Shown in pieces: positions 16,125 through 58,384 of a stretch of DNA of 64,000 bases (position 1 is the first letter of the stretch; the number at the start of each line of letters is the position of its first letter). The notes under the pieces were generated by a model. It had not been told where the DNA came from. It saw nothing but the letters and a program-made list of their open reading frames with translations, and ran no database searches. The stretch comes from Crocinitomicaceae bacterium (GTDB lineage Bacteria; Bacteroidota; Bacteroidia; Flavobacteriales_D; Crocinitomicaceae). The stretch covers positions 186,001-250,000 of the forward strand of contig JAKVAR010000002.1 in NCBI GenBank assembly GCA_022447585.1. Direction: 5' to 3'. A program made the translations under genes and the position numbers.

Positions 16125-16641
16125 GATCATCTCCTGTTTTAGTAACGGCCTCAAAATTCATTAGCTGAGACAATTTTATCCTAGCCCTGCGAAGCCTTTG
16201 CTTCACAGATGATTCTGATGCGTTTTGAATTCCTGCAATTTCTTTGATGCTAAACCCTGATATTTCAAATAAAATAATGCACTCTCGTTGTTCGTCATTG
16301 AGTTCGGACATTGCCTGATACAAAAATTGAATATCTGTTGTAACCTCTCCAGAAGATTCAGTATCATTCAACTGATTAATATTATCTTCTTTAGATAAGG
16401 GACGTTCTTTCTTTTTGATGTTATTATTCGACAATATTCGAACACTAATACTGAATAGAAATGACAAAAAAGCTTCTTTTGATCGAAGCGTTTCAAATTT
16501 GTCAAATGCTACTAACAAGGTTTCATTTATGAGATCTCTGTATTCCATATCTCCATACACTCTTGCTCTGCAGAAGCCTTCGAACCTATCATGAATTGGC
16601 TCGTAAAGTGCTAAAAATTCGTCTTGTTTTGAAACTCTCAT
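16117..16641 (-). CDS. ECF-type RNA polymerase sigma factor (module 1)
   Basis: A 174-residue sigma-70 family protein. Region 2 spans about residues 10-80 (DRFEGFCRARVYGDMEYRDLINETLL). Region 4 spans about 110-165 with a helix-turn-helix (ISGFSIKEIAGIQNASESSVKQRLRRAR). It lacks long extra domains, as expected for the ECF group. The start MRVSKQDEF aligns with that of its paralogue at 32145, supporting this ATG. It overlaps the downstream FGE-like gene by 8 nt. The upstream region carries a TGTAACTT...TAC motif shared with the paralogue, consistent with self-activation. The regulon and the signal are unknown. Confidence 0.93.
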   Translation of the reverse strand: MRVSKQDEFLALYEPIHDRFEGFCRARVYGDMEYRDLINETLLVAFDKFETLRSKEAFLSFLFSISVRILSNNNIKKKERPLSKEDNINQLNDTESSGEVTTDIQFLYQAMSELNDEQRECIILFEISGFSIKEIAGIQNASESSVKQRLRRARIKLSQLMNFEAVTKTGDDHE

Positions 16642-16677
16642 TTATTTAAAACACATCGTTGGGTTCACAATGTAAGT

Positions 16678-16702
16678 ATGATAACTCAAGGATAAGTTAC
16701 AT
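16678..16702 (-). promoter_or_regulatory. Candidate autoregulated ECF promoter, module 1
   Basis: On the minus strand ATGTAACTT begins at 16702 and TAC follows 19 nt after GTAACTT. The same box and spacing precede the paralogous sigma gene at 32145. The -35-like half resembles GGAACTT of classical ECF promoters. It ends 37 bp before the start codon. Confidence 0.5.
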
Positions 16703-16761
16703 GACAACCAAACTTATTTAAAAATTATCCCGTTTTCATATAACATATAAACTATCGAACT

Positions 16762-17079
16762 ATGAGAATAATCACAGCAACTATAATTTTAATCGGACTC
16801 GTTTTCGTTTCATGTAAAAAGGATGAAAACAACGTCACACCAGCATGTGATGGGTCAAACCCAAACTACAATAGTTTTGTTCAAAGCGTAATGTCATCTC
16901 ATTGTATCTCTTGTCATTCTGATATGGCCACGTATGCTGGTCTTTCGGTATATTTGAATAATGGCTCATTTGCCAAAGAAGTATTAACAGATCAAACAAT
17001 GCCTCAAGGTGGATCTTTGGATGCTACAACATTAAATAAACTTCAATGTTGGGTTGATAATGGCTTCCCTGAAAATTAA
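16762..17079 (+). CDS. Small c-type cytochrome-like lipoprotein
   Basis: A 105-residue exported protein with a lipoprotein signal (LIGLVFVSC, lipid Cys at residue 18) and one c-type haem site CISCH (Cys48, Cys51, His52). TMPQGG around residue 83 offers a possible distal Met ligand. The layout (short domain, SHCISCHS, MPQGG, LNKLQCWVDNGFPEN) matches small planctomycete-type/Bacteroidota cytochrome c lipoproteins. It would sit in the periplasm, tethered to a membrane, and carry electrons; its partner is not visible here. It is divergent from the sigma gene and 94 bp upstream of dxs. Confidence 0.8.
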   Translation: MRIITATIILIGLVFVSCKKDENNVTPACDGSNPNYNSFVQSVMSSHCISCHSDMATYAGLSVYLNNGSFAKEVLTDQTMPQGGSLDATTLNKLQCWVDNGFPEN

Positions 17080-17125
17080 AATTAAACGTTAAAAACCCTA
17101 AATTATAAAATAAATACCGTTGATA

Positions 17126-17157
17126 TTTGTTGTGATAAACGAGAAGACGTAAATTTG
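17126..17157 (+). promoter_or_regulatory. Candidate promoter of dxs
   Basis: TTTG (17126-17129) and TAAATTTG (17150-17157) match the Bacteroidota -33 and -7 boxes with a 20-bp gap. The start would lie a few bases before the dxs ATG at 17174, giving a very short leader. Confidence 0.5.
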
Positions 17158-17173
17158 TTTTTGTTGAACGATT

Positions 17174-19126
17174 ATGGCAGAATATAAAACAGGACCTTTT
17201 TTAGAACAAATTAATCTCCCAGAAGATCTTAGAGAAAAATTTGGAATTGATGATTTACCTCAGATTTCGGAGGAAGTGCGTCAATATATAGTTGATGTGA
17301 TTTCAGAAATTGGCAACAGTCATTTTGGTGCTAGTTTAGGTGTTGTAGAGTTAACTGTTGCTTTACACTACGCTTTCAACACTCCATATGACCAATTAGT
17401 TTGGGACGTAGGTCATCAAGCATATGGTCACAAAATTCTTACAGGTCGTAAAGATTCTTTTCCAACAAACAGAATTAAAGGAGGAATTTCTGGATTCCCT
17501 AAACGTTCTGAAAGTCATTACGATACTTTCGGTGTTGGTCACTCTTCGACTTCAATTTCTGCAGCGCTAGGAATGGCTGTTGCGAATAATTACAAAGGAG
17601 AGAAAGAACGTCAGCACATTGCGGTTATTGGTGATGGTGCCATGACTGCAGGCTTGGCATTTGAAGGTCTAAATCACGCAGGATTTGAAAAAGATGCGAA
17701 TCTTTTAGTTGTATTAAATGACAACTGTATGTCGATTGACCCCAATGTTGGAGCTTTAAAAGAATACTTAACAGACATCACGACATCTCATACATATAAT
17801 AAAGTAAAAGATGAGGTTTGGAATTTACTAGGAAAGGTTTCTAAGTTTGGCCCAGATGCTCAATCTGTTGCTTCAAAAATTTCGACTGCTTTAAAAGGTT
17901 CTTTGTTAAAACAAAGTAATTTGTTTGAATCATTGAATTTCCGTTATTTCGGCCCAGTAGACGGACATGATGTTATTGGTTTAGCGAAGGTTATGGAAGA
18001 TTTAAAGGATATTCCAGGACCGAAAATTTTACATTGCATTACACGAAAGGGTGCCGGATACAAGTTTTCTGAAGAAGGAAACCCAACTCAATGGCACGCT
18101 CCTGGTGTATTTAATAAAGATACGGGTGAAATTGTTAAAGTGGTTCCAAAATCCCCACAGCCACCAAAGTATCAAGAAGTATTTGGTCATTCAATAGTTG
18201 AATTAGCTGAGGAGAATGAAAAGGTAATGGGAATTACTCCTGCTATGCCCTCTGGATGTTCATTGAACATAATGATGAAGGCAATGCCTAAAAGAACATT
18301 CGATGTAGGCATCGCTGAGCAACATGCCGTAACATTTTCTGCTGGCCTTGCTACTCAAGGAATGGTTCCTTTCTGTAACATCTATTCTTCATTTATGCAA
18401 CGTGCATTTGACCAAGTATTGCATGATGTTGCATTACAGAACTTAAATGTTGTTTTCTGCTTAGATCGCGCAGGACTTGTTGGGGCCGATGGTGCCACTC
18501 ATCATGGTGCTTACGACATTGCGTATATGAGATGTATTCCAAACATGACAGTTTCGGCTCCTATGAATGAGTCTGAATTACGTGACTTAATGTATACTGC
18601 TCAACTTGAAAACATGGGCCCTTTTTCGATTAGATACCCTAGAGGGAAAGGTGTAATGACTGAATGGAAAACTTCAATGAAAGCCATCAAGGTTGGAACT
18701 GGACGAAAAGTGACTTCTGGTCAAGACATTGCTATTCTTTCTCTTGGGCATCCAGGAAACTTTGTCCAAGAAGCAATCAAAGAGCTCAAAACTTCTGGGG
18801 CTTCAATAGCACATTACGATATGCGTTTTGTTAAACCTATTGATGAGACTATGCTGCATGAGGTATTCTCAAAGTTCGATAAAGTAATTACCGTAGAAGA
18901 TGGATGTTTAATGGGAGGTTTCGGATCTGCAGTTATTGAATTTATGGTTGATCAACTATACACTGCTGAGATCGTTCGCTTAGGAATACCTGATGAATAT
19001 ATTCACCATGGCACTCAACAAGAATTATGGGAAGATTGTGGTTTCGATACAAAATCTATCGTGAAAACAATTAAAACTATGCTTAATCTCGAAATTAAAA
19101 CTGAAAAAGAAGCCGCCAATTCATAG
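17174..19126 (+). CDS. dxs: 1-deoxy-D-xylulose-5-phosphate synthase
   Basis: Thiamine-diphosphate enzyme that joins pyruvate and glyceraldehyde 3-phosphate, the first step of the MEP isoprenoid pathway. At 650 residues it is of normal length. Visible features are VWDVGHQAYGHKILTGR near residue 80, the cofactor motif GDGAMTAGLAFEGLNHAG with NDNCMSI, FGPVDGHDV, and the transketolase-like central domain with DVGIAEQHAVTFSAGLA. MAEYKTGPFLEQI is a plausible start with a promoter box directly upstream. Isoprenoids made here could feed the CrtI/CrtISO-type enzyme at 40625, although the genes are not linked. Confidence 0.96.
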   Translation: MAEYKTGPFLEQINLPEDLREKFGIDDLPQISEEVRQYIVDVISEIGNSHFGASLGVVELTVALHYAFNTPYDQLVWDVGHQAYGHKILTGRKDSFPTNRIKGGISGFPKRSESHYDTFGVGHSSTSISAALGMAVANNYKGEKERQHIAVIGDGAMTAGLAFEGLNHAGFEKDANLLVVLNDNCMSIDPNVGALKEYLTDITTSHTYNKVKDEVWNLLGKVSKFGPDAQSVASKISTALKGSLLKQSNLFESLNFRYFGPVDGHDVIGLAKVMEDLKDIPGPKILHCITRKGAGYKFSEEGNPTQWHAPGVFNKDTGEIVKVVPKSPQPPKYQEVFGHSIVELAEENEKVMGITPAMPSGCSLNIMMKAMPKRTFDVGIAEQHAVTFSAGLATQGMVPFCNIYSSFMQRAFDQVLHDVALQNLNVVFCLDRAGLVGADGATHHGAYDIAYMRCIPNMTVSAPMNESELRDLMYTAQLENMGPFSIRYPRGKGVMTEWKTSMKAIKVGTGRKVTSGQDIAILSLGHPGNFVQEAIKELKTSGASIAHYDMRFVKPIDETMLHEVFSKFDKVITVEDGCLMGGFGSAVIEFMVDQLYTAEIVRLGIPDEYIHHGTQQELWEDCGFDTKSIVKTIKTMLNLEIKTEKEAANS

Positions 19127-19136
19127 CCTTTTCTAA

Positions 19137-19853
19137 ATGTCAGAAAATCTGAAAACCTTTCTCAATTGGAGTTCAGGAAAGGACGCCTCATTAGCTCTTC
19201 ATTACTTACAAAACAACTCGAAATTTTCGGTTGAGCACCTGCTTACTTCTGTAAATGACCATTATGATCGTATTTCGATGCATGGGGTCCGTCGAAGTAT
19301 GCTCGAAGTTCAGATCAAATCTATAGGACTTCCATTTTCAACCATTGAACTTCCGTTAGAACCTACGATGGAAGAATATGAAGAAAAAATGCGTCAAATT
19401 CTGGAGAGGCTCGTTGAAGACGGATTTAAAGTATCAGCATTTGGAGATATATTCTTGGAAGATTTAAGAACTTTCAGAGAAGAGAAATTAAAAGAAGTCA
19501 ACCTCAAAGGAGAGTTTCCACTCTGGAAGAAAAACACTTCGGAATTAGCGATAGAGCTTATTGAAAAAGGATTCAAAACAATTGTAGTTTGCGCAAAATC
19601 AGACTTATTGGATAAATCATTCGTTGGTCGTATTTTTGATAAGGAATTTCTAGAAGACTTGCCTGATAATGTAGACCCTTGTGGTGAAAATGGAGAATTT
19701 CATACTTTCTGTTTTGATGGTCCAATTTTTAAATTTCCAGTAGCATATGAAATCGGAGAAAAAACATTTAAATCTTACTCAAATCCAAACAAAGAAGATC
19801 AATCTGGAGATATTGGCTTTTGGTTTTGCGACTTACTGCCTAAACCTAATTAA
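19137..19853 (+). CDS. Dph6-like diphthine-ammonia ligase family PP-loop ATPase
   Basis: A 238-residue protein with an N-terminal ATP-pyrophosphatase loop (LNWSSGKDASLALHYL, residues ~10-25) and the C-terminal family motif DPCGENGEFHTFCFDGP. In archaea and eukaryotes the family finishes diphthamide on EF-2, but bacteria lack that substrate, so the bacterial role is unknown. It follows dxs by 10 bp and is likely co-transcribed. Its 3' end overlaps the convergent gene by 8 bp. Confidence 0.85.
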   Translation: MSENLKTFLNWSSGKDASLALHYLQNNSKFSVEHLLTSVNDHYDRISMHGVRRSMLEVQIKSIGLPFSTIELPLEPTMEEYEEKMRQILERLVEDGFKVSAFGDIFLEDLRTFREEKLKEVNLKGEFPLWKKNTSELAIELIEKGFKTIVVCAKSDLLDKSFVGRIFDKEFLEDLPDNVDPCGENGEFHTFCFDGPIFKFPVAYEIGEKTFKSYSNPNKEDQSGDIGFWFCDLLPKPN

Positions 19854-20499
19854 TCGCTCTAATTGCTCTCACTCTAGCAGTTTCACTTTTCAATTTAAAC
19901 TCGGCAACTCCTGAATTAAAGCTTACTACCCAAGCCTGGTCACTATCGAAATCGTTTGAGCTCCAATAATTATCGAAAGCAAAATTTCCAAGGTTATTAT
20001 TATCACCAAATGCCGCCGGCCCTATTGAATAAAACATTTCTGTTAGCTCAGTTTTATTAGGCAAATACCAATCAATATAAGTTGTGCTGGTATAAAATTC
20101 ACAAATGTTTGCAGCAATTCCAGGTTGACTACATCCACTATCAATATCAGTAGAATTATACATTCCTGAGCCTAAAGAAAGGCTGTCCGCTCCAAAAATT
20201 ATCGTTCCTTCACAACCCCATTCAGCTGCTATGCTTTGATCAGACATTGAAACAATTAATGCAGATCCATCTGACGGGTTAACGTAAAAGAGGATTCCTC
20301 CTCCGTACGTTTTTCCGATAATACTATCAGCAGGAAAGTCTTCTAAAATTTCCAAAATACTTAGTCCAGAATCAAGGTGTTCTTGTACAGTGGCATTCCC
20401 CAATAGGTTGACAGGGACTGAGGTATTATCTTCAGTCTCATCTTTTTTGCAAGCTGAAATAATTAAAAAAACCAATAAAATTGAAACAATCATTTTCAT
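19846..20499 (-). CDS. Lipoprotein with DUF1566/Lcl-like domain
   Basis: A 217-residue lipoprotein; the signal MKMIVSILLVFLIISAC has a lipobox Cys at residue 17. The middle reads GGGILFYVNPSDGSALIVS and the C-terminus reads DWYLPNKTELTEMF, YWSSNDFDSDQAWVVSFNSG and ARVRAIRAI. This order is typical of DUF1566/Lcl C-terminal domains, a C-type-lectin-like surface fold. The ligand is unknown. It overlaps the preceding plus-strand gene tail to tail. Confidence 0.75.
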   Translation of the reverse strand: MKMIVSILLVFLIISACKKDETEDNTSVPVNLLGNATVQEHLDSGLSILEILEDFPADSIIGKTYGGGILFYVNPSDGSALIVSMSDQSIAAEWGCEGTIIFGADSLSLGSGMYNSTDIDSGCSQPGIAANICEFYTSTTYIDWYLPNKTELTEMFYSIGPAAFGDNNNLGNFAFDNYWSSNDFDSDQAWVVSFNSGVAEFKLKSETARVRAIRAIN

Positions 20500-20650
20500 A
20501 CTCGAAGTTTTGTCAAAAATACAAGAATATCCTCAACTCCTTTAAAATCAATCTCAGGCGATTTATACCAGACCACGCCCGCCTATAATTAAAATGAAAG
20601 AGTCTGGTGCGTTTTTCGTAAATTCGAGCACATAACTAAAAATAAACTTG

Positions 20651-21319
20651 ATGAAAAAATTAATATTATCAGCAATATTCGCTGTTTGCACATTAGCTAC
20701 GACTATGGCTCAGGTAGATGAAGGTCACGTTAAATTCAATCTTGACGTAACCGCTACCGATCCTCAAATGGAAATGGCTGTTGGAATGATGCAAGGAAGT
20801 TCAGTAGAAATCTATTTCTCTGGCGAAAGTATTCACTCTGAAGTAAATATGGGAGCTGTAATGAAAGTTCAAACAATTGTCTTAGGTGAAACTGGTGAAG
20901 CTTTAATTCTAATGAGTGGAATGATGGGTAACACTGCTGTTCCGACAACTACAGAAGCAATGGAAGCAGAATCAGTTGAAGCTCCTGAATTAGATATTCA
21001 ATTAGTTGATGAGACTAAAGAGATACTAGGGTATGAATGTAAAAAAGCAATTGTCACAGATGAAGATGGCAATGAGACTATTACATGGTATTCTGAAGAC
21101 ATAAAAGTAAACACTAAAGGTCAGAGTTACCACAATGAAAAAATTCCTGGATTCCCTTTAGAATTCACTCAAAGTGCAAATGGAATGGCAATGGCTTTTA
21201 CAGCAACAGAAATCGAAACTAAAATCGACAAAAAGAAAAAGAAAACAATGTTCAGCGTTGAAATTCCAGAAGGATATAAAGAAATGACTCCTGAAGAATT
21301 GAAGTCAATGGGAATTTAA
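20651..21319 (+). CDS. Secreted DUF4412-like protein
   Basis: A 222-residue exported protein from the ATG at 20651 (the track uses a TTG one codon earlier). The signal peptide is KLILSAIFAVCTLATTMAQ. The rest is a beta-rich domain with EILGYECKKAIVTDEDGNETITWYSEDI, the hallmark of the DUF4412/GLPGLI-like group, where a Tyr-Cys-Lys-Lys-Ala segment recurs. It is Met- and Glu-rich in the middle. It would be periplasmic or outer-membrane associated. Function is unknown. Confidence 0.75.
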   Translation: MKKLILSAIFAVCTLATTMAQVDEGHVKFNLDVTATDPQMEMAVGMMQGSSVEIYFSGESIHSEVNMGAVMKVQTIVLGETGEALILMSGMMGNTAVPTTTEAMEAESVEAPELDIQLVDETKEILGYECKKAIVTDEDGNETITWYSEDIKVNTKGQSYHNEKIPGFPLEFTQSANGMAMAFTATEIETKIDKKKKKTMFSVEIPEGYKEMTPEELKSMGI

Positions 21320-21334
21320 TGACAATAACTACTT

Positions 21335-21366
21335 CAACAAAGGCAGCTAGTTAGCTGCCTTTGTTG
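21335..21366 (+). terminator. Intrinsic terminator after the DUF4412-like gene
   Basis: A near-perfect 15-bp hairpin CAACAAAGGCAGCTA / TAGCTGCCTTTGTTG with T-rich 3' arm, 16 bp after the stop. Confidence 0.8.
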
Positions 21367-21747
21367 TTTCTATAGGTTTAGATTTAGCATGTTCGAACAC
21401 TATTCATCGTTATCCTAACTGTAAACATTATATTTTGCGACAAGTATAATACCGCTTAATTCAGAAGCATTTAATTTAAAATTATTTCGCGATACTTTCA
21501 TTTAAAGCCCTCGATAGAAATTGAAAACCTGCAGCTAACAAGTTAAGGATGAATAAAAAGGTATATCATCCGCTAGGCTTAACAAAAAGAAATTTGGGCT
21601 TATAGTTCATCAGATTTATCATGCGATTACATAGAAGTGTTCACAAAAGTTAAAAAAACAAATACTTTAACAACGTTCAATTATTTAATGACTATTTGTT
21701 TTTATTTTAGGTATCCAAAATAAGATTTAACTAATGTCTTAAAATTT
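21367..21747 (+). other. Intergenic region upstream of the TIGR03032-like gene
   Basis: An AT-rich stretch of 381 bp with no ORF of note on either strand. It is unusually long for this compact window and probably holds the control region of the two-gene unit downstream. I see no clear -7/-33 pair, riboswitch or repeat. Confidence 0.5.
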
Positions 21748-22830
21748 ATGCCTAACAATCAACATACAAGAGCTTTAGCTCCATTTTCTTGTTCATATTC
21801 GGCGCAAGTTCCTGAATTATTGCAACGATTAAATTGTACTCTATCGATATCAACATATCAAGCCGGTAAATTGATTTTCATTTCAGCTTTAGATGAAAGT
21901 AAAATTGTTCAACTACCTAGAACATTTGATAAACCAATGGGTATAGCGCAGGATTATGAAAAAGACAAATTAGCAATCGCCTGCAAGGATGAAGTCATTG
22001 TCTTTTCTAATTCTAAAGAATTGGCGAAGCATTATCCAAAGTCACCAAATAAGTATGATTCGCTTTACATGCCGAGACTAACTTACCATACAGGTACATT
22101 AGATATTCATGACCTCAACTTTGGAAAGAATAATGAGCTTTATGGAGTAAATACTTTGTTTTCAAGTATAATTAAATTGGATGATGATTATAATTTTAGA
22201 CCGGTTTGGACACCCGGTTTTATAGATAAAATTGTTGCTGAAGATCGATGTCATTTAAACGGCATGGCAATGCTGAATGGTAAGCCAAAATATGCTACAG
22301 CGTTTGGCCAAGGTAATTCATTTCAAAGCTGGAGAAATACAGTGACAACAGGAGGCATTCTAGTTGATGTCGATACAAACGAAATCATTATAGAAGGGCT
22401 TGCAATGCCGCATACACCTCGTATTTTTAACGGAGAATTATATACGCTTTTATCAGCAACAGGAGAATTAATTAAGATCAATAAGGAAGCAGGCACATAT
22501 GAAGTGATTTTAAAGCTTGATGGTTTTGTACGTGGTATGGACTTGCATCAGGACTATCTATTTATAGGATTATCGAAATTACGTCAAAATTCATCAACTT
22601 TTGCAAAGTTAAATCTTCAAGCAAATGAAGCTGGAATTGTTGTGGTTCATCTGCCAACGGGAAGTATTGCGGGTAAGATTACGTATCAAACTTCTTTGGA
22701 TGAAATATATGATGTACACGTGCTTCCCAATACAATAAGACCAAATATTATGAATACCATTCGTCCTGATTATAAAGAGGGCGTAACTACTCCCAATACA
22801 ACCTTTTGGGCAAAACAAAATAAATTCTAA
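21748..22830 (+). CDS. TIGR03032-like protein (DUF4915-type)
   Basis: A 360-residue protein without a signal peptide. The segments LSISTYQAGKLIFIS, GIAQDYEKDKLAIACKDEV, LYMPRLTYHTGTLDIHDL, YGVNTLFSSIIKLDDDYNFRPVWTPGFI and DRCHLNGMAML follow the TIGR03032 family. The repeated beta pattern suggests a propeller. Function is unknown; members are often cytoplasmic and linked to large repeat proteins. It is 15 bp upstream of an FG-GAP-repeat T9SS cargo, so the two are probably one operon. Family assignment is from memory of its conserved blocks. Confidence 0.75.
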   Translation: MPNNQHTRALAPFSCSYSAQVPELLQRLNCTLSISTYQAGKLIFISALDESKIVQLPRTFDKPMGIAQDYEKDKLAIACKDEVIVFSNSKELAKHYPKSPNKYDSLYMPRLTYHTGTLDIHDLNFGKNNELYGVNTLFSSIIKLDDDYNFRPVWTPGFIDKIVAEDRCHLNGMAMLNGKPKYATAFGQGNSFQSWRNTVTTGGILVDVDTNEIIIEGLAMPHTPRIFNGELYTLLSATGELIKINKEAGTYEVILKLDGFVRGMDLHQDYLFIGLSKLRQNSSTFAKLNLQANEAGIVVVHLPTGSIAGKITYQTSLDEIYDVHVLPNTIRPNIMNTIRPDYKEGVTTPNTTFWAKQNKF

Positions 22831-22845
22831 ATTTCAATTTACGCT

Positions 22846-24138
22846 ATGAAAAAAATAAACCACTCACGAAAAAAGAGGCAGCTAGCTAGAATAATAGAAC
22901 AGTTAAAGTTAAAAATTAGCTTATCAAATCAATCAGTAGAGGAGATTAATCAAATTAAACTCAGAATTAAAATTTTATTGCAAGAATTATCTGGTTTTGT
23001 GCCAAAACATCAACTAATAAAGATTTTAGGCTCTTTTGCAGTTGTATTTGGTTTTGCTTCAAGTTCAGTTGCTCAATCATTTATTGCTCCGGTTCAAAAT
23101 CCTTTTGGTTTAACATCAACAGGAAGTTACATACAATTTCCAGCACTTGCGGACCTAGATGGTGATGGTGATATAGATATGTTGGTTGGAACGTATGCTG
23201 ATAGTCTCTATTTTTTTGAAAACACGGGTACAACATCGGCTCCCGCCTATGCGAATCCTGTAGCAGAGCCATTTGGTCTTTCTTCTGGCATGTTGGACGT
23301 ACCTGCATTTACGGATCTTGATGGTGATGGTGACTTAGACCTGATGCTTGGTCAATATTCTGGTACATTGACATATCATGAAAACGTTGGGTCAGCGAGC
23401 ACTCCTTCATTTGCAGCAGGAGTTTCCTTACCATTTGGTTTAACAGCAACGGATCAATTTGCAATCCCTGAATTTGCGGATCTTGATGCGGATGGTGATA
23501 TGGATCTTCTAGTAGGCGAGTATGAAGGCAATTTACAATATTTCGAAAATACGGGTACCTCAACAGCACCAAATTTTGCGTCGCCACAACTAAATCCGCT
23601 TGGATTATCTGCTGGATACGATATTTCTTCGCCAAACTTGGCTGATTTTGACCTCGATGGAGATTTAGATATGCTATTAGGTGAATATTACGGGAACTTT
23701 TCCTATTTCGAAAATACAGGAACTACAACCAGTCCAAATTTTGCCTCGCCACAACTAAATCCATTCGGTTTATCAGCCACATATTATTTTGCTTTCCCTG
23801 CACTGGCAGATTTTGATAATGATGGAGATGTAGATGTAATGGTAAGTGAGTATGAGGGTACATTCCAGTATTTTGAAAACAACGATCCGAATGCGACACT
23901 TTTAGAAAACACCATGCTGGGATCAATTGATCCAAATCCATTTTATGATGTTTTAAATTTTAAATTTGACCAAGATGTTATCCAAGCGAATTTTGTGAAT
24001 CTTGCAGGGCAAACGGTTCTTTCTATTAAAAACCCAAAAGCAAATGTAGATGTTAGTTCACTAGATCCAGGCCTCTACTTTGTGAAATGTATTCATCTAA
24101 ATAATAGACAGTCAGAACATAAGCTACAAAAGCATTAA
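22846..24138 (+). CDS. FG-GAP/VCBS-repeat T9SS cargo with long cytoplasmic leader
   Basis: A 430-residue protein. Five ~57-residue repeats (residues ~80-365) each contain a calcium-type loop such as DLDGDGDIDMLVG followed by YFENTG, as in FG-GAP/VCBS propellers. A sorting domain with GSIDPNPFYDVLNFKF closes it. The hydrophobic export segment (LIKILGSFAVVFGFASSSVAQ) begins only near residue 58, after a very basic, helix-prone leader (MKKINHSRKKRQLARIIEQLKLKI). No later ATG precedes the hydrophobic stretch, so the leader seems real. The partner TIGR03032-like gene lies 15 bp upstream. Confidence 0.85.
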   Translation: MKKINHSRKKRQLARIIEQLKLKISLSNQSVEEINQIKLRIKILLQELSGFVPKHQLIKILGSFAVVFGFASSSVAQSFIAPVQNPFGLTSTGSYIQFPALADLDGDGDIDMLVGTYADSLYFFENTGTTSAPAYANPVAEPFGLSSGMLDVPAFTDLDGDGDLDLMLGQYSGTLTYHENVGSASTPSFAAGVSLPFGLTATDQFAIPEFADLDADGDMDLLVGEYEGNLQYFENTGTSTAPNFASPQLNPLGLSAGYDISSPNLADFDLDGDLDMLLGEYYGNFSYFENTGTTTSPNFASPQLNPFGLSATYYFAFPALADFDNDGDVDVMVSEYEGTFQYFENNDPNATLLENTMLGSIDPNPFYDVLNFKFDQDVIQANFVNLAGQTVLSIKNPKANVDVSSLDPGLYFVKCIHLNNRQSEHKLQKH

Positions 24139-24166
24139 CAGCCTTCTTAAAGAAGCAATGTTAGTT

Positions 24167-24208
24167 TTAAACGTTACTTGTTTCCGAATAGGAGCAAGTA
24201 ACGTTTAA
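24167..24208 (+). terminator. Perfect inverted repeat, probable terminator
   Basis: TTAAACGTTACTTG is repeated as its exact complement CAAGTAACGTTTAA after 14 nt. It lies 29 bp past the FG-GAP gene. The tail is AT-rich but lacks a strong T-run, so an attenuator or protein site is also possible. Confidence 0.55.
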
Positions 24209-24589
24209 TTTATAATGAAATAAGAATAGTTATTAGCACAATTTTTCAATGCTATCTGTTCGTTCTGAAAACAAAACAATTGAGTTTCAAACCAATAAAT
24301 GAAGCATAGAACTATAAGAGAGTCTTGAATAGTATCTTCTAAAAGATCTAATTGATTTATCTCGTTTTATGCATTTAAAGTGTTTCATCTAAGCCTCATT
24401 AATAAACTTTAGCTTCGGGGTAAATAAACCTGAAAGAGGAATTGACATCTTGCATTTTCATCAAATTAAACCTCTAAGATTCTTCACTCTGCTCTTTTAA
24501 TGAAAACTAAAGCCCTTCATTAAGACAACTTTCTTCCGATTACGATCTTTTCTTGGTACTATTGTACTTTATACTAACACTGATTCTTT
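24209..24589 (+). other. Intergenic region before the S41 protease gene
   Basis: A 381-bp AT-rich stretch with no coding potential that I trust. The start of the downstream gene is uncertain because no ATG precedes its signal peptide. Confidence 0.4.
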
Positions 24590-26653
24590 TTGATTTCTCA
24601 ATTCCTACCTTATTTACTGCATAAAAGTCGTCTTTTATCAAGCGTATTTGTTCTAATATCTTTCGTATCAACTTCCCAAACCATTGATGTTTCACAAAAG
24701 GCATACGGGTTAATTGAACTTTTTGAAAAAGAACATGTCCAACCACTGGAAATAAACGATTCTTTCGGTCTAACGATACATGAAGTATTGTTGAATACTA
24801 TTGATCCAGATCACGATTTTTTCACAAAAACTGAGCTCCAAGAATTAGTCAATAAATCAGCTCAAATTGATGACGACATAGCTGCCTATGAAACTTCATA
24901 TCTAGACTTCTTTAAAAAGAAATTTTATTCAAACATAAGCAAAGCAGATTCTATCCATACAACCATTTTTAATTCTAAAATTGACATACTCAAGGCAACA
25001 ACACCTGAACTTGAAGCCGACTCTATTTTAACTAAAAGTAATTCTCTTGCCCATTGGAAACTAAAATACAGAAAGTCAATACAAGCTGCTGTTCTAGAAA
25101 AATTAGAACTTAGTGATTATAATTACTCACAAGACTCTTTTGATATAATCATACAAGAATCAACTTCTTTAGTTAAAAGTAATTTCAAAGATTATTTCAA
25201 AAATTTAATGTTAGACTCCTCTTTTGTCAATAATCAATATTTAAATGCAATTGCCGCATCTTTTGATTCTCATTCGGAATATTTCACCACATCTCAAAAT
25301 AATAGTTATCAAGAAGAACTAACGAGTGAACGCGAAATTTTCGGGATTAGTTATGTCAAAAACCTCAATGGTGTTTTCGAAATCACCGATGTACACCCCG
25401 GAAGTTCAGCCTGGTTATCAGGGGAAATTCATGTTGGCGATGAGCTAGTGAAACTCAAGTTCGGTGGTGATGAACCGATCTTAACAGAAGGTAAAACAAA
25501 CTACGAATTACATCAAGCTTTTGCCAAGGCCATCAGTAAGGACTTAATTTTAACTATTCATTCGAATGGTCAAGTTAAAACAGTTCACCTTGTAAAATCC
25601 AAAGTCTATAGCGACAGTGATATAATTAAGTCTGCTGTTTTACAAGGTGAACAAAAGGTGGGGTATATCGCACTACCTGACTTTTATGCCAACTGGACAG
25701 ACACCAATCAATTAGGCTGTGCAAATGACCTAGCCAAAGCATTAATCAAACTTAAAAAAGAAGACATTGGAGGTGTAATTCTTGATTTGAGAAATAATGG
25801 TGGCGGATCTCTTTTTGAAGCAGTTGATTTAGTTGGTACATTTATCGATTATGGTCCTGTTTTAGTTGTTAAAGACAATAAAGAAGATATTCAAACTTTC
25901 AAAGATTTTAACCGTGGAGCTATTTATCGCGGTCCTCTAATTATCCTTATCAATGAATACTCTGCTTCCGCATCGGAGGTTGTTGCAGGGGCAATTCAAG
26001 ATTACAATCGAGGTCTAATTGTAGGACAAACTTCATTCGGCAAAGCAACAGGGCAAAGTGTTCAACCCTTGATTTTAGAAGATGGAGAAATTCATGGTTA
26101 TGCAAAAATAACGGGGATTGGTTTATACAGAATTAGTTTGGAGACCAATCAGATTCATGGTGTAGTTCCTGATATAGATTTAGAGCCTCTTTCCAAATTC
26201 GATTACAAGCGTGAAGAAGATTATCCAAATGTCCTATCCTTAGGAAGCATAGAAAAGAAGATGTACTATACACCAAAGAATAAAATTGAAACTGAAGACT
26301 TAATTCGCAAGATGAAACTTAGAAAAGAAGCAAATCCGACAAGAACAAAAGCTTTGATTTTAATCCATCAATTAGAAGATAAATATGATGAAATCGATTA
26401 CTCCAATCAAAGTTTACTCGAAATCATTGAACTTAAAAAAGAGGTTATTTCGATCAAAAATGAATTATACGATACATTAGACAATTGGATTCAGGACTAT
26501 ACACCAATAACAACTAAATACGATGCTGAAATTTATCGAATGAATAATTATTTGAATTCATACAATGAAACTTTTCACGAACGCATCAAAAATGATTATG
26601 AACTTGGGGAGACATATCAAATTATGCTCGACTTAATTAAACAAAACAAATAA
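24590..26653 (+). CDS. S41 family C-terminal processing protease
   Basis: A 687-residue periplasmic serine protease. The N-terminus (RLLSSVFVLISFVSTSQ) is a signal peptide; there is no ATG upstream of it, so the TTG at 24590 is the likely start. A PDZ domain covers about 245-325 (EITDVHPGSSAWLSGEIHVGDELVKL). The S41 core follows with GVILDLRNNGGGS, the catalytic Ser in NEYSASASEVVAGA (~residue 457) and Lys in GQTSFGKATGQ (~residue 484), the Ser/Lys dyad of Prc/Tsp. The tail is coiled and Lys/Glu-rich. Related proteases trim exported or lipidated proteins. The next gene starts 7 bp downstream. Confidence 0.92.
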   Translation: MISQFLPYLLHKSRLLSSVFVLISFVSTSQTIDVSQKAYGLIELFEKEHVQPLEINDSFGLTIHEVLLNTIDPDHDFFTKTELQELVNKSAQIDDDIAAYETSYLDFFKKKFYSNISKADSIHTTIFNSKIDILKATTPELEADSILTKSNSLAHWKLKYRKSIQAAVLEKLELSDYNYSQDSFDIIIQESTSLVKSNFKDYFKNLMLDSSFVNNQYLNAIAASFDSHSEYFTTSQNNSYQEELTSEREIFGISYVKNLNGVFEITDVHPGSSAWLSGEIHVGDELVKLKFGGDEPILTEGKTNYELHQAFAKAISKDLILTIHSNGQVKTVHLVKSKVYSDSDIIKSAVLQGEQKVGYIALPDFYANWTDTNQLGCANDLAKALIKLKKEDIGGVILDLRNNGGGSLFEAVDLVGTFIDYGPVLVVKDNKEDIQTFKDFNRGAIYRGPLIILINEYSASASEVVAGAIQDYNRGLIVGQTSFGKATGQSVQPLILEDGEIHGYAKITGIGLYRISLETNQIHGVVPDIDLEPLSKFDYKREEDYPNVLSLGSIEKKMYYTPKNKIETEDLIRKMKLRKEANPTRTKALILIHQLEDKYDEIDYSNQSLLEIIELKKEVISIKNELYDTLDNWIQDYTPITTKYDAEIYRMNNYLNSYNETFHERIKNDYELGETYQIMLDLIKQNK

Positions 26654-26660
26654 ACACAAA

Positions 26661-27698
26661 ATGAAACATTTACTTTTTATCGCAATTCTTTTATTCAGTG
26701 GATTTAACTTTGCGCAAGACATGACTAATGGAGGTGCTTATATGGACTCCTTTAGCGCTGAAAACGAACAATTGCAAGCCGATATGTGGGATTATACAAG
26801 AACCATTTCTCATGGCAAAAGTGCACGTAAAGTTGAAAAACGTAGAGGGGAATTAATCAATACTTCCAATGCCGCCTTAAAAAAAGCGGAGAATTCAAAA
26901 CCATTCAACGATGACACTGAATACAGAGATGCAATTATCAAATATTATAAAGTAATTAATCTTGTTTTGAAGGAAGATTATGCAAAACTTGTAGACATGG
27001 AAGAAGTAGCTGAGCAATCATATGATCTAATGGAAGCATACATGATGGCAAGAGAGTTGGCAAGCGATAAACAAACTGAGGCTTCTGCTGAACTAACCAT
27101 AGCACAAAAAAAATTCGCTGAAGCAAACAACATTACTTTAGTTACTTCTGAGGATGACTCTATGGATAAAAAGATGGAGATTGCTGGTAAGGTTTACGAC
27201 CACTACAACGAAGTATACCTTATTTTTTTTAAAAGTAGTAAGCAAGAAATGTATTTAATTGATGCTTTGGTTACGAATGATATGAGTGCTATTGAACAAA
27301 ATAGAGAAGCTCTATTAGGAACCGTTGAAGAGGGATTAGAAAAACTAAAAAATGTAAAACCATACGCAGAAGACAATTCTATGATTCAAGCAACAGAAGC
27401 AATTTTTTCATTTTACGAAGAAGAAGCTGCAAAGGACATCGAACTGGCCATTGATTATATTATGAAAAGTGAAAACTTTGCAAAAGTGAAAGCAGCTTTC
27501 GATGAGAAAAAAGAGAAGAATAGAACTCAAGAAGATTTTGACCAATACAACAAAGGTGTAAATGAAATGAATGAAGCAGTAAACACGTATAATGAAATGA
27601 ATGAAAAGAACAACAAGTTAAGATCAAAGCTAATTGATAACTGGAATTCAACAGCGGAAAAATATACGAATTCGCATGTTCCTAGAGGAAGAAAATAA
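26661..27698 (+). CDS. Secreted all-helical protein of unknown function
   Basis: A 345-residue protein with signal peptide MKHLLFIAILLFSGFNFAQ. The mature part is charged and helical throughout, with probable coiled coil at ~280-330 (FDEKKEKNRTQEDFDQYNKGVNEMNEAVNTYNEMNEKNNKL). I see no catalytic motif and do not recognise a family with confidence. It follows the S41 protease by 7 bp and precedes the DUF6624 gene, so it may be a substrate or partner of the protease (inference). Confidence 0.8.
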   Translation: MKHLLFIAILLFSGFNFAQDMTNGGAYMDSFSAENEQLQADMWDYTRTISHGKSARKVEKRRGELINTSNAALKKAENSKPFNDDTEYRDAIIKYYKVINLVLKEDYAKLVDMEEVAEQSYDLMEAYMMARELASDKQTEASAELTIAQKKFAEANNITLVTSEDDSMDKKMEIAGKVYDHYNEVYLIFFKSSKQEMYLIDALVTNDMSAIEQNREALLGTVEEGLEKLKNVKPYAEDNSMIQATEAIFSFYEEEAAKDIELAIDYIMKSENFAKVKAAFDEKKEKNRTQEDFDQYNKGVNEMNEAVNTYNEMNEKNNKLRSKLIDNWNSTAEKYTNSHVPRGRK

Positions 27699-27771
27699 TC
27701 TAACCCTAATTTAGTCGTTGCAAATTTGTTACCATACAAATCAAATTCGTTATACTTCTAAACCACTCTTT

Positions 27772-28677
27772 ATGAATAAATTTTTCCTTGTCCTCACCTG
27801 TGCAATTGTTTCAATTTCGTGCTACTCACAAGATTTAACATCAAAAGCAGACAGCTTGCGAAATTTAGGTTTTGTAAACGAGGCTTCAGAAGTTTACCGC
27901 AAAATTCTATTGAAAGATTCTACAAATGGGTTAATTCTTTACAATTATGCCTGTGTTCTAGCACTCAACAATCAGTTTGACCAAGCTTTTGAATACTTGA
28001 ATAAATCAACAGAACGCGATACTTCAATTCGCCCTTTAACTGATCCAGATTTGTATTTTTTAACCAATGACCCTCGCTGGGAGGACTTCGCTTTAAAAGA
28101 GATTACTAAAGTCGAATCAAAGTTTGGTAAATATCAAAATCTAACGTTAGCAAAAGAACTATGGAGGATGAACATGACTGATCAAGCCTTTTATTATCAG
28201 CTTGACGTCGCAAAAATACATACAGGATATAATTCAGTTGTAGTTGACGGCCTTTGGGAATTAAAGCGCAAACTGAATCATTCAAATTTAGAGCGATTAA
28301 TAGAAATCATCGACGTCAATGGATGGCCATTATCTAGTGAAGTGGGAGGTTCTGCTGCTAATGCAGCGTTTCTAATTATTCAACATGCAAATCTTGAAGT
28401 GCAAAAGAAGTATTTACCAATCATGAAAGAAGCAGCTGACAAAGGTGAAGCTTCTTGGGCTTCGCTAGCACTGCTAATTGACAGAGTAGAAATGCGTCAA
28501 CAGAGACCTCAGGTATATGGTTCCCAAATTCAACGTATCGAGGGTGAATTTGTAGTTTACGAAATAGTAGATCCAGAATTTGTTAACCAAAGAAGAGAAG
28601 AAGTTGGGCTAGGTCCAATTGAAGAATACGTTCAACATTGGGATATCACATGGACTACAGCACAAAAAAGAAAATAA
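27772..28677 (+). CDS. Secreted DUF6624-type protein
   Basis: 301 residues from the ATG at 27772, which opens a signal peptide (MNKFFLVLTCAIVSISCYSQ); the track's upstream start would bury it. A TPR-like helical part (~20-90, YNYACVLALNNQFDQAFEYLNKS) precedes the DUF6624 domain with VNGWPLSSEVGGSAANAAFLIIQHA, LPIMKEAADKGEASWASLALLIDRV, QVYGSQIQRIEGEFV and DPEFVNQRREEVGLGPIEEY. The family is widespread in Bacteroidota and has no assigned function. A terminator-like hairpin lies ~130 bp downstream. Confidence 0.85.
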   Translation: MNKFFLVLTCAIVSISCYSQDLTSKADSLRNLGFVNEASEVYRKILLKDSTNGLILYNYACVLALNNQFDQAFEYLNKSTERDTSIRPLTDPDLYFLTNDPRWEDFALKEITKVESKFGKYQNLTLAKELWRMNMTDQAFYYQLDVAKIHTGYNSVVVDGLWELKRKLNHSNLERLIEIIDVNGWPLSSEVGGSAANAAFLIIQHANLEVQKKYLPIMKEAADKGEASWASLALLIDRVEMRQQRPQVYGSQIQRIEGEFVVYEIVDPEFVNQRREEVGLGPIEEYVQHWDITWTTAQKRK

Positions 28678-28689
28678 TCAAATTAAACG

Positions 28690-28720
28690 TGTAACTTTTT
28701 CCAGATTTAGCACTCTTACT
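28690..28720 (+). promoter_or_regulatory. Third TGTAACTT...TAC motif
   Basis: TGTAACTT begins at 28690, and TAC starts exactly 19 nt after GTAACTT, as upstream of both ECF sigma genes. It lies in intergenic DNA just after the DUF6624 gene. What it drives is uncertain; the next unit is a short region closed by a terminator. Confidence 0.4.
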
Positions 28721-28724
28721 ATAT

Positions 28725-28843
28725 AAGATGAAAGCATTTGTATAAGTAACATAAGTGCAATGGTTAGGTAATTTTAGAATATAGTTTAGTTTTCATCAAA
28801 TAACATTGACGCCCTCTTCAAATTGAATTGGGCGTTTTGTTTT
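28725..28843 (+). ncRNA. Candidate small RNA between an ECF-like promoter and a terminator
   Basis: About 110 nt lie between the TGTAACTT...TAC motif and a hairpin with T-rich tail, without a credible ORF. The region holds ATAAGTAACATAAGTGCAAT; ATAAGTAAC and CATAAGTGCAAT both recur in the intergenic region at 33917-33947. This is inference: the segment could also be the 3' UTR of the DUF6624 gene. Confidence 0.3.
28809..28843 (+). terminator. Intrinsic terminator
   Basis: ACGCCC / GGGCGT arms enclose an inner TTCAA / TTGAA pairing; TTTTGTTTT follows. It could serve the DUF6624 gene, the candidate small RNA, or both. Confidence 0.75.
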
Positions 28844-28850
28844 ATCTTAG

Positions 28851-29015
28851 ATGTTCAGAAAAATGATGTTTAAGAAAGTTACTGTTTTTATTGGGTTCAT
28901 TCTTTCGCTCTTAAACACAAGTGCGCAAACATCATTTACCCATTTACGCCAAGCGCACACTAACATTGATTTCAGAAATACAATCTTTGAAACAGAAGAA
29001 TTCTTATTGAATTAA
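28851..29015 (+). pseudogene. 5' stump of a VCBS/ASPIC-UnbV type secreted protein gene
   Basis: A 54-codon ORF missed by the track. It has a signal peptide (KKVTVFIGFILSLLNTSAQ) followed by FTHLRQAHTNIDFRNTIFETEEF. This is the usual opening of Bacteroidota VCBS/ASPIC-UnbV proteins (F-x-x-L....T-x-I-x-F-x-N-x-I-x-E-x-E-x-F), which normally continue for ~1100 residues with NGGGVAVGDFNNDG-like repeats. Here a stop comes at once, overlapping the 3' end of the convergent CotH gene. I read it as the remnant left after loss of the rest of the gene. A functional short secreted peptide cannot be excluded. Confidence 0.5.
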
Positions 29016-31028
29016 CAGCTTCTCTCTAAGTACTTGCCCTGAATCCAATTGGATAACAACTAAAAATGAACCCGATAAGTCTCTAGTATCCAATTGAACC
29101 TGTGAACCACCGATTGCTTTCACCTGACGGACTAACTTGCCAGAAAGATCAAAAACTGAAACATCTGTGATTGATTTGTTTACAAAAACATTGACAACAT
29201 CATTTGCCGGATTAGGGTATACTGCCAAATACGGTTCTTTCGCTATAGCTGTAATTCCAAGATTAGGGCAATTACCAGGCATATTATTATCTAGCCAATT
29301 AAGTCTTTCAGCAATCCACCCCTTGAACTTAACAAGCTCTTCAGCATAGGTATTTGGTTGCGTTCCAATTTCTGGGGTCCCCACATTTACACCAAGAATA
29401 GGCCAACGCGTAAAATGACGATCTTGAGCATCGGTCAACACATTGCCTAATGAATCGATGTAATTGAACAACACCGAAGTATCTAGAATCGTATTTCTTA
29501 ACGTAAAATACCTACAACTCAGCTCATTTGCAAACGTGGTATCTTGAATCATTCGCATATACCAGCCTGGCGGCTTCACGTCTGACCCCCCTGAATAACT
29601 ATGTATCCAACCACTTCCATTTAGCATATTGGCATCAGTATCCTTATAAGCCCAATCAAAATCCCATACAGGACCTGCATAAATCAAAGAATCTTTATCG
29701 TCTCTAGTCTTATGGAAACGACGACTTTTCTTAAACCCGTCAATATTTCTGGAAAACTCATTGACAATAAAATAATCGATAAATGAAAGAACATCTATAT
29801 ACTTGCGGTAACCATCCGAAGGGTGTTCAAAATTATTACCCCATAATGCATCTTCAAATTCACCAACACGTTCTTGTATGTATATCTTTTGCTCTTGTGT
29901 AATATCAAACTCATCAGGATAACCGTAAACATATTGCACTGCACTACCTGGGTAATTTGGATTATCATAATTTGATGGCCAGCTATTAGTTCCATCCCAA
30001 TAATCTACCTTAAAAATATAGCCTCCAGTAAGGCTATCTCCAGCATTATCATCCAAATCCAGTCTTGAAATATCTACGCGATCATTGTCTCTTTTTATCT
30101 TCTCCGTAAAAACATATACGCCATTATATATATCATTAATTACCACTTCACACAATTTAGTTCTTGGTGCATAGTGTCCCATTTTGTTAAACAAATCAAA
30201 CGCAAGAATATTTCTTATAAAAGTCTTGTCATTGTAGTTTGCCAATAGTATCCAATCATTCTCAGTTGGCATTCCAAGAAGGGGAACATTGTTGTTCTGA
30301 CCAAATGCGTCTTGAGTTTCAATTCCGTAAGGTTTCTGAGGTAGTGTAGCAGAATAAGAACCACGGATTTCAATTCCAGCATACCCATCATATACATTGG
30401 CAGGATCATTGGGATGATTTAGAGCTCCTGGCCCGTTATCTATGATCTTCATGTTCACTAAAATCTTAGGTTCATCAATAATCTCCTGCCCATTAGTGTT
30501 GATTAATACAAGCGGAATATTTGTCGCGCTTGGTGGATTCAATCCTATGCTTTCTGTTATATTTAATTGATAATTCCCATTATCATTCCCACTATAACCA
30601 TCAATTACAATGAAATAAGTTGTATTGGCTTGCAACAATTGCGCAGTAATTCGCGAATTGTAAGCTGCTGCAAAACTAGGCGATTGACAGCCATCCTCCT
30701 GACATCCAACCGGTGTCCCTGTACAATTACCCTCATAAACATACAATTGAGAATCATAATCGGTGATGCCTTCGCACAAACTAATATCCACATACTTATC
30801 CGTTCCACCATTCGTGTACTCATAAACATGATCATTTGCCCCACCTTGATTTCCTACATCTGCACAACTCTCAAAATAATCATCTACCGCTCCTAAAGTA
30901 GACCCACTACCCGTATAAGGAATACTTGAAATTACTGTAGCAGTAGCACATGTTTCTCCACCAGATTGGCTATATACATTAAAATTGATAATTAATGCTA
31001 AAACCCAAAAAGAACAAACAACTTTCAT
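29004..31028 (-). CDS. CotH-family T9SS-secreted protein with PPC-like domain
   Basis: A 674-residue secreted protein. After the signal peptide (MKVVCSFWVLALIINFNVYSQ) comes a PPC-like beta-sandwich (~22-160, DKYVDISLCEGITDYDSQLYVYEG). The CotH kinase-like domain (~170-570) follows, with GIEIRGSYSATLPQKPYGIET, NDWILLANYNDKTFIRN, YAPRTKLCEVVINDIYNGVYVFTEKIKR and the acidic motif AGPVWDFDWAY. A T9SS sorting domain (AVYPNPANDVVNVFV) closes it. Characterised CotH proteins phosphorylate surface proteins on Ser; that activity here is inferred. A second CotH protein with a different N-terminal domain is at 50091. Confidence 0.9.
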   Translation of the reverse strand: MKVVCSFWVLALIINFNVYSQSGGETCATATVISSIPYTGSGSTLGAVDDYFESCADVGNQGGANDHVYEYTNGGTDKYVDISLCEGITDYDSQLYVYEGNCTGTPVGCQEDGCQSPSFAAAYNSRITAQLLQANTTYFIVIDGYSGNDNGNYQLNITESIGLNPPSATNIPLVLINTNGQEIIDEPKILVNMKIIDNGPGALNHPNDPANVYDGYAGIEIRGSYSATLPQKPYGIETQDAFGQNNNVPLLGMPTENDWILLANYNDKTFIRNILAFDLFNKMGHYAPRTKLCEVVINDIYNGVYVFTEKIKRDNDRVDISRLDLDDNAGDSLTGGYIFKVDYWDGTNSWPSNYDNPNYPGSAVQYVYGYPDEFDITQEQKIYIQERVGEFEDALWGNNFEHPSDGYRKYIDVLSFIDYFIVNEFSRNIDGFKKSRRFHKTRDDKDSLIYAGPVWDFDWAYKDTDANMLNGSGWIHSYSGGSDVKPPGWYMRMIQDTTFANELSCRYFTLRNTILDTSVLFNYIDSLGNVLTDAQDRHFTRWPILGVNVGTPEIGTQPNTYAEELVKFKGWIAERLNWLDNNMPGNCPNLGITAIAKEPYLAVYPNPANDVVNVFVNKSITDVSVFDLSGKLVRQVKAIGGSQVQLDTRDLSGSFLVVIQLDSGQVLREKLLIQ

Positions 31029-31377
31029 ATAGATCTATTTAAAATGATGAACAAGGTACAATTTCTAAAGCCCACTTCAAATATCATTTAAACAAAAACT
31101 ATCCGTTCCTCTCGTTTGGAGAAATAACAACAACCTTACAGATAACTTTATAACTGATTTGAAGGTAACTGAACTTAGTTTGTAAACGTTAAAACGATTA
31201 CAATTGATAATTTTGATAGAATAATCCCAGATTTAACATGGGTTTTCTTTAAAAAAAAGTATTCACATTTAATCAGGTATGGGTTGTACACATTGTAATC
31301 GTTATAACACTTTCTCCTAACTTATTGAATACATTGAGAATCATATTATTTTTAGGTTCATTATTGAAAATCATTCC
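31029..31377. promoter_or_regulatory. Divergent control region with a 12-bp inverted repeat
   Basis: AACGATTACAAT (31193-31204) recurs as its exact complement ATTGTAATCGTT (31292-31303), 87 bp apart, between two divergent genes. The spacing is too wide for a simple terminator; two operator sites for one regulator is a possible reading. I see nothing else in this 349-bp region. Confidence 0.35.
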
Positions 31378-32085
31378 ATGCGTGTCGCCATTTTGATAAC
31401 CATCATTTTCTTATCATTCATAGGTAAGACTCAAAACTTCGTTGAGAACCCTGGTCTCGAAGAAAAGAAACACTGCATCGGATATCGCGGTGGCTTTGGT
31501 TACAATGTTGATTCTTGGACCTCACCAACTTTAATGACTACCGATTACTTTCATTCATGTAACTTCAATAACGTGCAGTCGCCTGATAATCAGTTTGGGT
31601 TTCAGTATCCCGCCGATGGACAAGGATATACGGGAATGTTCTTATACGCTCCACAAAATTACAGAGAGTACATTCAAGGTACGCTAAACGATACTTTAGA
31701 GTACGGTAAAATGTATGAGTTATCATTTCACATTTCCTTGGCTGAAGAATCTAAATTTGCAATCCGCGCATTTAGTTTTATAGCTACAGATCGAGAAATT
31801 CATGCCGCTAATCGAAGAAGTTTAAACCGTGAAGATGTAGCAGCTGAGTTTTCAGATTCTTTAGAAATTCATGTCATTTCTCAAAAAGCGTATCATCAAG
31901 ATACCACACATTGGATTCGCATAAGTCAAACTTTTATTGCAACGGGAGGTGAAAAATACTTCACTATTGGAAATTTCGATACAAACTTTCGGACCAAAAG
32001 AAAGAAAGCAAATCGAAAAGCTAAGATTAAAGCCGCCTACTATTTCATAGATAAAGTTGCTATTCGACCAATTTTAGAAATTTAA
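31378..32085 (+). CDS. Secreted carbohydrate-binding-like beta-sandwich protein
   Basis: A 235-residue protein with signal peptide MRVAILITIIFLSFIGKTQ. The mature start NFVENPGLEEKKHC, then PADGQGYTGMFLYAPQNYREYIQGTL and LEYGKMYELSFHISLAEES, resemble the galactose-binding-like domain often placed at the N-terminus of Bacteroidota OmpA-like proteins. Here it stands alone, with a Lys/Arg-rich stretch (TKRKKANRKAKIK) near the end. It lies 59 bp upstream of the second ECF sigma gene, which has its own promoter-like motif. Ligand unknown. Confidence 0.7.
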   Translation: MRVAILITIIFLSFIGKTQNFVENPGLEEKKHCIGYRGGFGYNVDSWTSPTLMTTDYFHSCNFNNVQSPDNQFGFQYPADGQGYTGMFLYAPQNYREYIQGTLNDTLEYGKMYELSFHISLAEESKFAIRAFSFIATDREIHAANRRSLNREDVAAEFSDSLEIHVISQKAYHQDTTHWIRISQTFIATGGEKYFTIGNFDTNFRTKRKKANRKAKIKAAYYFIDKVAIRPILEI

Positions 32086-32095
32086 TTTCAACTCT

Positions 32096-32126
32096 ATGTA
32101 ACTTTTCTTAAACTTAAGACATCTAC
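32096..32126 (+). promoter_or_regulatory. Candidate autoregulated ECF promoter, module 2
   Basis: ATGTAACTT begins at 32096, and TAC starts 19 nt after GTAACTT. The same box and spacing precede the sigma gene of module 1. It ends 18 bp before the start codon. Confidence 0.5.
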
Positions 32127-32144: not shown

Positions 32145-32675
32145 ATGAGAGGAAAAAGTAGGAAAGAAAAAGACTTCATGCAATTGTACACACCGGTGCA
32201 TGAAAACTTCGAGCGATTTTGCAAAGCTCGGGTCTACGGAGATATGGAGTATAAAGATCTAATGCATGATACCATCATCATCGCATATGAAAAGTTTGAA
32301 TCCCTTGACAGCCCAAAAGCCTTCTTACATTTCTTATTTGGAATCTCAATACGCGTGCTAGCAAATTCGAACAGAAAGCAACGCATTCTATACTTAAAAG
32401 ATCATTCTAAGGCAAATAATGTTGAAGACGAATCAACAAGAGCTGATCGAAATGAAGAAGTAGATTTACTGCATAAGGCGCTTTCTAAGCTACCTGACAA
32501 TCAACGTGAAGCCATTGTTTTATTTGAAATCTCTGGATTTTCGATTGTCGAAATTGCTGAACTTCAAGAAGCGGGAGTTTCAGCTGTTAAGCAGCGATTA
32601 GCTAGAGGGAGAAAAGCACTGCTCGACGATTTAAAACAAACAGATTCACAACCATTAAAAAAGATGGAACTATGA
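32145..32675 (+). CDS. ECF-type RNA polymerase sigma factor (module 2)
   Basis: A 176-residue sigma factor closely related to the one at 16117. The region-2 block HENFERFCKARVYGDMEYKDLMHD shares RVYGDMEY with it. Region 4 has LPDNQREAIVLFEISGFSIVEIAELQEAGVSAVKQRLARGR. The two are clear paralogues within 16 kb. The gene overlaps the next one by 4 nt (ATGA), which implies translational coupling to its membrane partner. The TGTAACTT...TAC motif upstream suggests self-activation. The signal is unknown. Confidence 0.93.
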   Translation: MRGKSRKEKDFMQLYTPVHENFERFCKARVYGDMEYKDLMHDTIIIAYEKFESLDSPKAFLHFLFGISIRVLANSNRKQRILYLKDHSKANNVEDESTRADRNEEVDLLHKALSKLPDNQREAIVLFEISGFSIVEIAELQEAGVSAVKQRLARGRKALLDDLKQTDSQPLKKMEL

Positions 32676-58367: not shown

Positions 58368-58375
58368 TAGTTTTG
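58368..58375 (+). promoter_or_regulatory. Candidate -7 box directly upstream of cysQ
   Basis: TAGTTTTG fits TAnnTTTG and ends 10 bp before the TTG start of cysQ. If real, the transcript would be almost leaderless. Confidence 0.3.
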
Positions 58376-58384
58376 TAACTTTGG

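Follow-up and report, generated by a model that had tools for sequence, protein, structure and literature searches.

Probable ECF-type promoters before two sigma factor genes and a predicted small RNA in a Crocinitomicaceae genome

In a 64-kb stretch of the genome of a Crocinitomicaceae bacterium, here called the window (C112:186001-250000 of a 4.48-Mb draft in 201 contigs), two genes for ECF sigma factors are preceded by the same spaced motif, GTAACTT-N19-TAC, and a third copy of the motif is found in non-coding DNA. Are the three sites promoters of one class, and what would be transcribed from the third? With a probability of about 0.8, we read them as three ECF-type promoters, two of which would drive their own sigma genes and the third a predicted non-coding RNA of ~115 nt under the same type of control. 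Support at the level of sequence covers the conservation and spacing of the promoters, the conservation of the RNA core and terminator, and linkage. The promoters and the two sigma operons are:

16672..16701, minus strand: ECF1 promoter, TGTAACTT ATCCTTGAGTTATCAT ACTTAC, with the ATG 30 nt downstream; 27.6-28.3 bits with models from other species
16117..16641, minus strand: ECF1 sigma factor gene, 174 aa; Sigma70_r4_2, TIGR02937
14691..16154, minus strand: ECF1 partner gene, overlapping the end of ECF1; FGE-sulfatase domain
28690..28719, plus strand: third promoter, TGTAACTTTTTCCAGATTTAGCACTCTTAC; rank 1 in the window by the combined model
32097..32126, plus strand: ECF2 promoter, TGTAACTTTTCTTAAACTTAAGACATCTAC, with the ATG 18 nt downstream
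32145..32675, plus strand: ECF2 sigma factor gene, 176 aa; 49% identity to ECF1
32672..33829, plus strand: ECF2 partner gene; encodes a TM-like stretch and a DUF2807 domain

The motif is exact at all three sites (28691-28719 and 32098-32126 on the plus strand, 16700-16672 on the minus strand), as the preliminary description had claimed, and with two further sites, 41368-41340 (-) and 58375-58403 (+), the window holds 5 exact matches compared with 0.08 expected from shuffled windows. The match at 41340, which that description did not list, lies inside an ORF. Two details had to be corrected: the minus-strand site, although real, ends at 16672 and not at 16678, and the sequence given as shared, ATGTAACTT, does not extend to the third site, which is preceded by G and not by A, so that TGTAACTT is common to all three. 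TTA at spacer positions 10-12, likewise reported before, was found again at the three sites; it corresponds to a looser preference among orthologue sites, which at these positions favour merely T-pyrimidine-purine (T in 24/28 and 24/26 sites). The second half of the motif is (T/A)CTTAC or TCTAC and thus longer than plain TAC.

A weight matrix was built from 54 sites upstream of ECF1/2 and ECF3 orthologues in other species, with the window's genome excluded, and both strands of the window, about 128,000 positions, were scanned. The three sites occupy the first three ranks, with 29.3 bits at 28690, 28.3 at 16701 and 26.2 at 32097. The next-best position reaches 7.3 bits, and in ten random 64-kb sequences the top scores range from 7.3 to 13.6 bits. 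Hence, the three sites form one group and are members of the ECF-gene promoter class. Two other candidates were rejected by the same matrix: the site in the cysQ start region (58374/58375), already suspected of being a chance match, scores 4.2 bits, and the ORF site at 41340 is also attributed to chance.

Genome-wide counts were obtained by pattern searches. The short form, GTAACTT-N19-TAC, has 23 matches compared with 47 for the reversed control, and 15 of the 23 lie within ORFs; it shows no enrichment over the reversed pattern and was dropped as a genome-wide marker. In contrast, the full form, TGTAACTTTT-N13-(G)TCTTAC, is enriched genome-wide. On the comparison of coding with upstream DNA by which the motif was originally proposed to stand or fall, the short form nearly fell; the extended form stood in the matrix scan of the window. 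The longer form is common to five of the eight non-coding short-motif matches in the window's genome; three of these directly precede ECF genes, namely ECF1, ECF2 and a third gene, ECF3, and the other two are a site before an outer-membrane barrel gene (C158:294256) and the window's third site. At the three ECF genes, the full motif is located 18-30 nt before the ATG. While the behaviour of the short form, unenriched and mostly in ORFs, would suit a coincidence of motifs in an A+T-rich window, this explanation is already refuted by scores of 26-29 bits at three sites against at most 13.6 in random windows, obtained with a model from other species, and its probability is negligible. A possible further weak site, AGTAACTTATCACTTTGGCGTAAATCTTAC, was observed at L022 (C191:185179 (-)), ~30 nt before a 117-aa response-regulator-like ORF.

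The partner proteins encoded in the ECF1 and ECF2 operons are both candidate anti-sigma factors or sensors. The ECF1 partner has a short cytoplasmic N-terminus, followed by a hydrophobic (TM-like) stretch and the FGE-sulfatase domain. The two partners have a similar short N-terminus (LNxLF...) and hydrophobic stretch and differ in their outer domains (FGE-sulfatase versus DUF2807); they are possibly anti-sigma/sensor fusions whose sensor domains have been swapped. In the DNA upstream of the orthologous sigma genes, nearly all genus members carry TGT(A/C)ACTTTT...ACTTAC or TGTAACTTTTCNGTAACTTGTNAGTCTTAC at one spacing; the distance to the start codon is mostly 14-36 nt. The resemblance of the GTAACTT half to an ECF -35 box, pointed out in the preliminary description, is supported by this recurrence of the same element at the same spacing. 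A conserved -35/-10 pair with fixed spacing is therefore present upstream of the ECF genes, and the motif at these genes is best read as an autoregulatory ECF promoter. Autoregulated ECF promoters in general combine an AAC-type -35 element and a short -10 element at fixed spacing and lie directly before the sigma gene. The sites described here resemble them in -35/-10 type, spacing, position and the presence of sigma factor and membrane partner in one operon, but differ in the lineage-specific elements TGTAACTTTT and (G)TCTTAC, for which the sigma specificity is predicted.

The ECF3 gene of the window's genome has its motif at C158:412596, 18 nt before the ATG. The full ECF3-type motif has 88 matches in 61 genomes compared with 23 for the backwards control, and a version whose spacer has one extra base, used as an informal spacing control, has 1 match in 61 genomes. 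Within the genus, ECF3-type matches, counted for this type only and including ECF3's own promoter, are found in 25/25 relatives with an intact ECF3 orthologue and in 1/7 relatives without one, where the match is single and mismatched. In one genome (G012, C3:82554-82989) the ECF3 gene is split in two frames, and no ECF3-type match is seen in this genome at one mismatch. The spacer of the ECF3 promoter contains, in most species (L120-L142), a second GTAACTT-like copy (TGTAACTTTTCNGTAACTTGT), which the small-RNA promoters and most other ECF3-type sites lack.

A long motif with fixed spacing could also be bound by a transcription factor that the sigma operons have in common, with no sigma promoter involved, as the present basis is sequence. 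We consider this very unlikely, since the motif has the architecture of an ECF promoter (AAC-type -35, short -10, fixed spacing), is positioned directly before ECF start codons, and has match numbers that track the presence of the ECF3 gene. Read as ECF promoters, the ECF3-type sites look like an envelope regulon, judging by the genes behind them: an OMP_b-brl_2 barrel gene in about 22 genomes, the window's included, and, as single cases, genes for DUF2807, SppA-type peptidase and CarboxypepD_reg proteins. The N-terminal region of the barrel protein behind the ECF3-type promoter (L016 / C158:294256; orthologues L152, L158, L160, L170, L223, L225 and others) is acidic, and the protein carries an (E/A)AHWAGxDFGF-like motif.

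What, then, would the third site serve? Between this promoter (28690-28719) and a terminator at 28808-28839 no gene start was found, and the interval is occupied by:

28727..28845, plus strand: predicted small RNA; stem 28727-28735/28789-28797, terminator 28808-28839 and T-rich tail
28750-28759, plus strand: core CATAAGTGCA of the predicted small RNA

The element, ~115 nt long, consists of a hairpin with a conserved CATARA-GTGCA loop and an intrinsic terminator; the latter was read from the predicted fold, the promoter/terminator scanner giving no call there. It thus has the form of a short non-coding unit, with an ECF promoter, no conserved ORF and an intrinsic terminator. Gene-less sites in relatives share CATA(A/G)(A)GTGCA(A/G), followed by TTTTAG or TTTAGG, 12-30 nt past the -10. 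Promoter and core occur together in 9/34 genus genomes, the window's included, in 0/206 genomes from other genera of the family, and not at all in backwards controls. Among 84,980 species genomes, the exact promoter-core form is matched 5 times; the MAGs concerned bear the titles Crocinitomicaceae (two), Fluviicola (one) and Bacteroidetes (two), and each of them is identical to a genome of the genus. Taken by itself, the core pattern occurs no more often than its reversed control, and the copies counted were therefore restricted to those linked to a promoter or operon.

In every copy, the hairpin precedes a second one that resembles an intrinsic terminator and has a T-rich tract. The arms around the core vary in sequence between species and keep their complementarity: 0/500 shuffles reach the summed energy of 5'/3' arm pairing, single-sequence support being weak for several copies, and own arms pair at -8.65 compared with -5.12 kcal/mol for swapped arms. 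The core is conserved in the loop in nine species, with the enclosing stem supported in sum. A whole-RNA MAFFT alignment was poor and left the cores out of register, and no Rfam family matched the predicted RNA at gathering score. The third locus gave no DNA alignment with relatives, and neither this approach nor an orthologue search with the neighbouring DUF6624 gene revealed a conserved locus. In eight relatives, the gene upstream of the RNA belongs to one PspC-type family (domain shown for one member), whereas in the window's genome it is the DUF6624 gene, unrelated to pspC, so that the locus has changed.

An ordinary mRNA has to be weighed at this point, made from an ECF promoter of a 54-aa secreted-type ORF (28851-29015) or of a lost gene, with the hairpin region as no more than a leader that contains the terminator of the upstream gene. 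An ORF with a signal-peptide-like start does begin at 28851, and many such promoters in relatives precede envelope genes. However, the terminator at 28808-28839 separates the promoter from this ORF, the ORF looks truncated, and the succession of promoter, core and terminator recurs in eight other species with different downstream genes; we therefore regard an ordinary mRNA as unlikely. Most likely, the third site starts a previously undescribed small RNA gene that is common to several related Bacteroidota. Its terminator could partly serve the upstream gene at 27718-28677. The 54-aa ORF (+) breaks off against the opposite gene for a T9SS-sorted protein (29004-31028) and seems to be what is left of a longer gene for a secreted protein.

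Searches with the complement of the core yielded no clear pairing target. The full antisense of the core, TTGCACTTATG, has no other site in the window's genome than the two RNA copies and is not enriched there at one mismatch; a match at the start of a sigma-partner gene in L112 is a suggestive single case. The second of the two copies lies behind the ECF2 operon:

33926-34029, plus strand: RNA element, second copy, within the 3' UTR of the ECF2 operon; terminator 34000-34029
33926-33975, plus strand: stem CCGGAATA/TATTCCGG of the second copy; core CATAAGTGCA at 33936-33945

Three copies directly behind an ECF2 operon are known, this one and its counterparts in two species. We lean slightly towards a new Crocinitomicaceae small-RNA family that would supply the non-coding part of an envelope stress response under ECF control, with its own ECF promoter and the 3' end of a sigma operon as sources. 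If so, every activation of the sigma operon would also yield the RNA.

Based on these data, we propose that TGTAACTTTT, as the -35 element, and a -10 element around (T/A)CTTAC or TCTAC form ECF-type promoters, two of which would act on ECF1 and ECF2 in positive autoregulation, sigma factor and membrane partner being made from one operon. The third promoter would give an RNA of ~115 nt that ends at the intrinsic terminator and presents CAUARA-GUGCA, then UUUUAG, in its loop. In relatives, the RNA lies behind pspC and downstream of a promoter of the ECF3 type, which is also present before ECF3 itself and the barrel gene. On the model of sigma-E, the sigma factor would be set free under envelope stress, upon which envelope genes would be induced and the regulatory RNA made; by analogy with MicA and RybB, the RNA would act post-transcriptionally through its loop. 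Recognition by these particular sigma factors, transcription, and the function and targets of the RNA are what we infer here. ECF1, ECF2 and ECF3 are all candidates for reading the third site, whose full length fits the ECF1/2 model best (27.4 compared with 17.0 with the ECF3 model) and whose -10 is TCTTAC; the RNA promoters of relatives carry an ECF3-type -10 (GTCTTAC or GTCTTAT) in 8/8 cases.

Circuits of this kind have precedents, of which the predicted RNA would be a new instance. They include the sigma-E-dependent small RNAs MicA and RybB of Salmonella and E. coli (PMC1804206) and FoxI and FoxJ, ECF-driven regulatory RNAs of Fusobacterium (PMC11005410), with which the element shares an ECF promoter, a short RNA, a conserved unpaired stretch, an intrinsic terminator and an adjoining envelope regulon, and from which it differs in having no Rfam match and an extra copy in the 3' UTR of a sigma operon. 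In Flavobacterium psychrophilum, of the same phylum, SM6 promoters are located before an ECF/anti-sigma pair, before T9SS genes and before the putative sRNA Rfp11 (PMC9723704). This is again an ECF-type promoter class with a sigma operon and a small RNA, but its -10 is described as having a CGT box. SigP of Porphyromonas gingivalis is another Bacteroidota ECF factor, for which the part of the report considered here proposes a motif unlike TGTAAC-N-TCTTAC and notes no small RNA (PMC4800418). ECF-driven regulatory RNAs are thus already known as a kind, and the candidate family would be new.

To our knowledge, hardly any sigma regulons have been mapped in environmental Bacteroidota, and we know of few studied small RNAs in the lineage concerned. 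The extended motif appears specific enough for regulon members to be predicted from sequence in uncultured genomes. The predicted RNA would extend the pairing of an ECF factor with an envelope-directed small RNA from Proteobacteria and Fusobacteriota into this Bacteroidota lineage.
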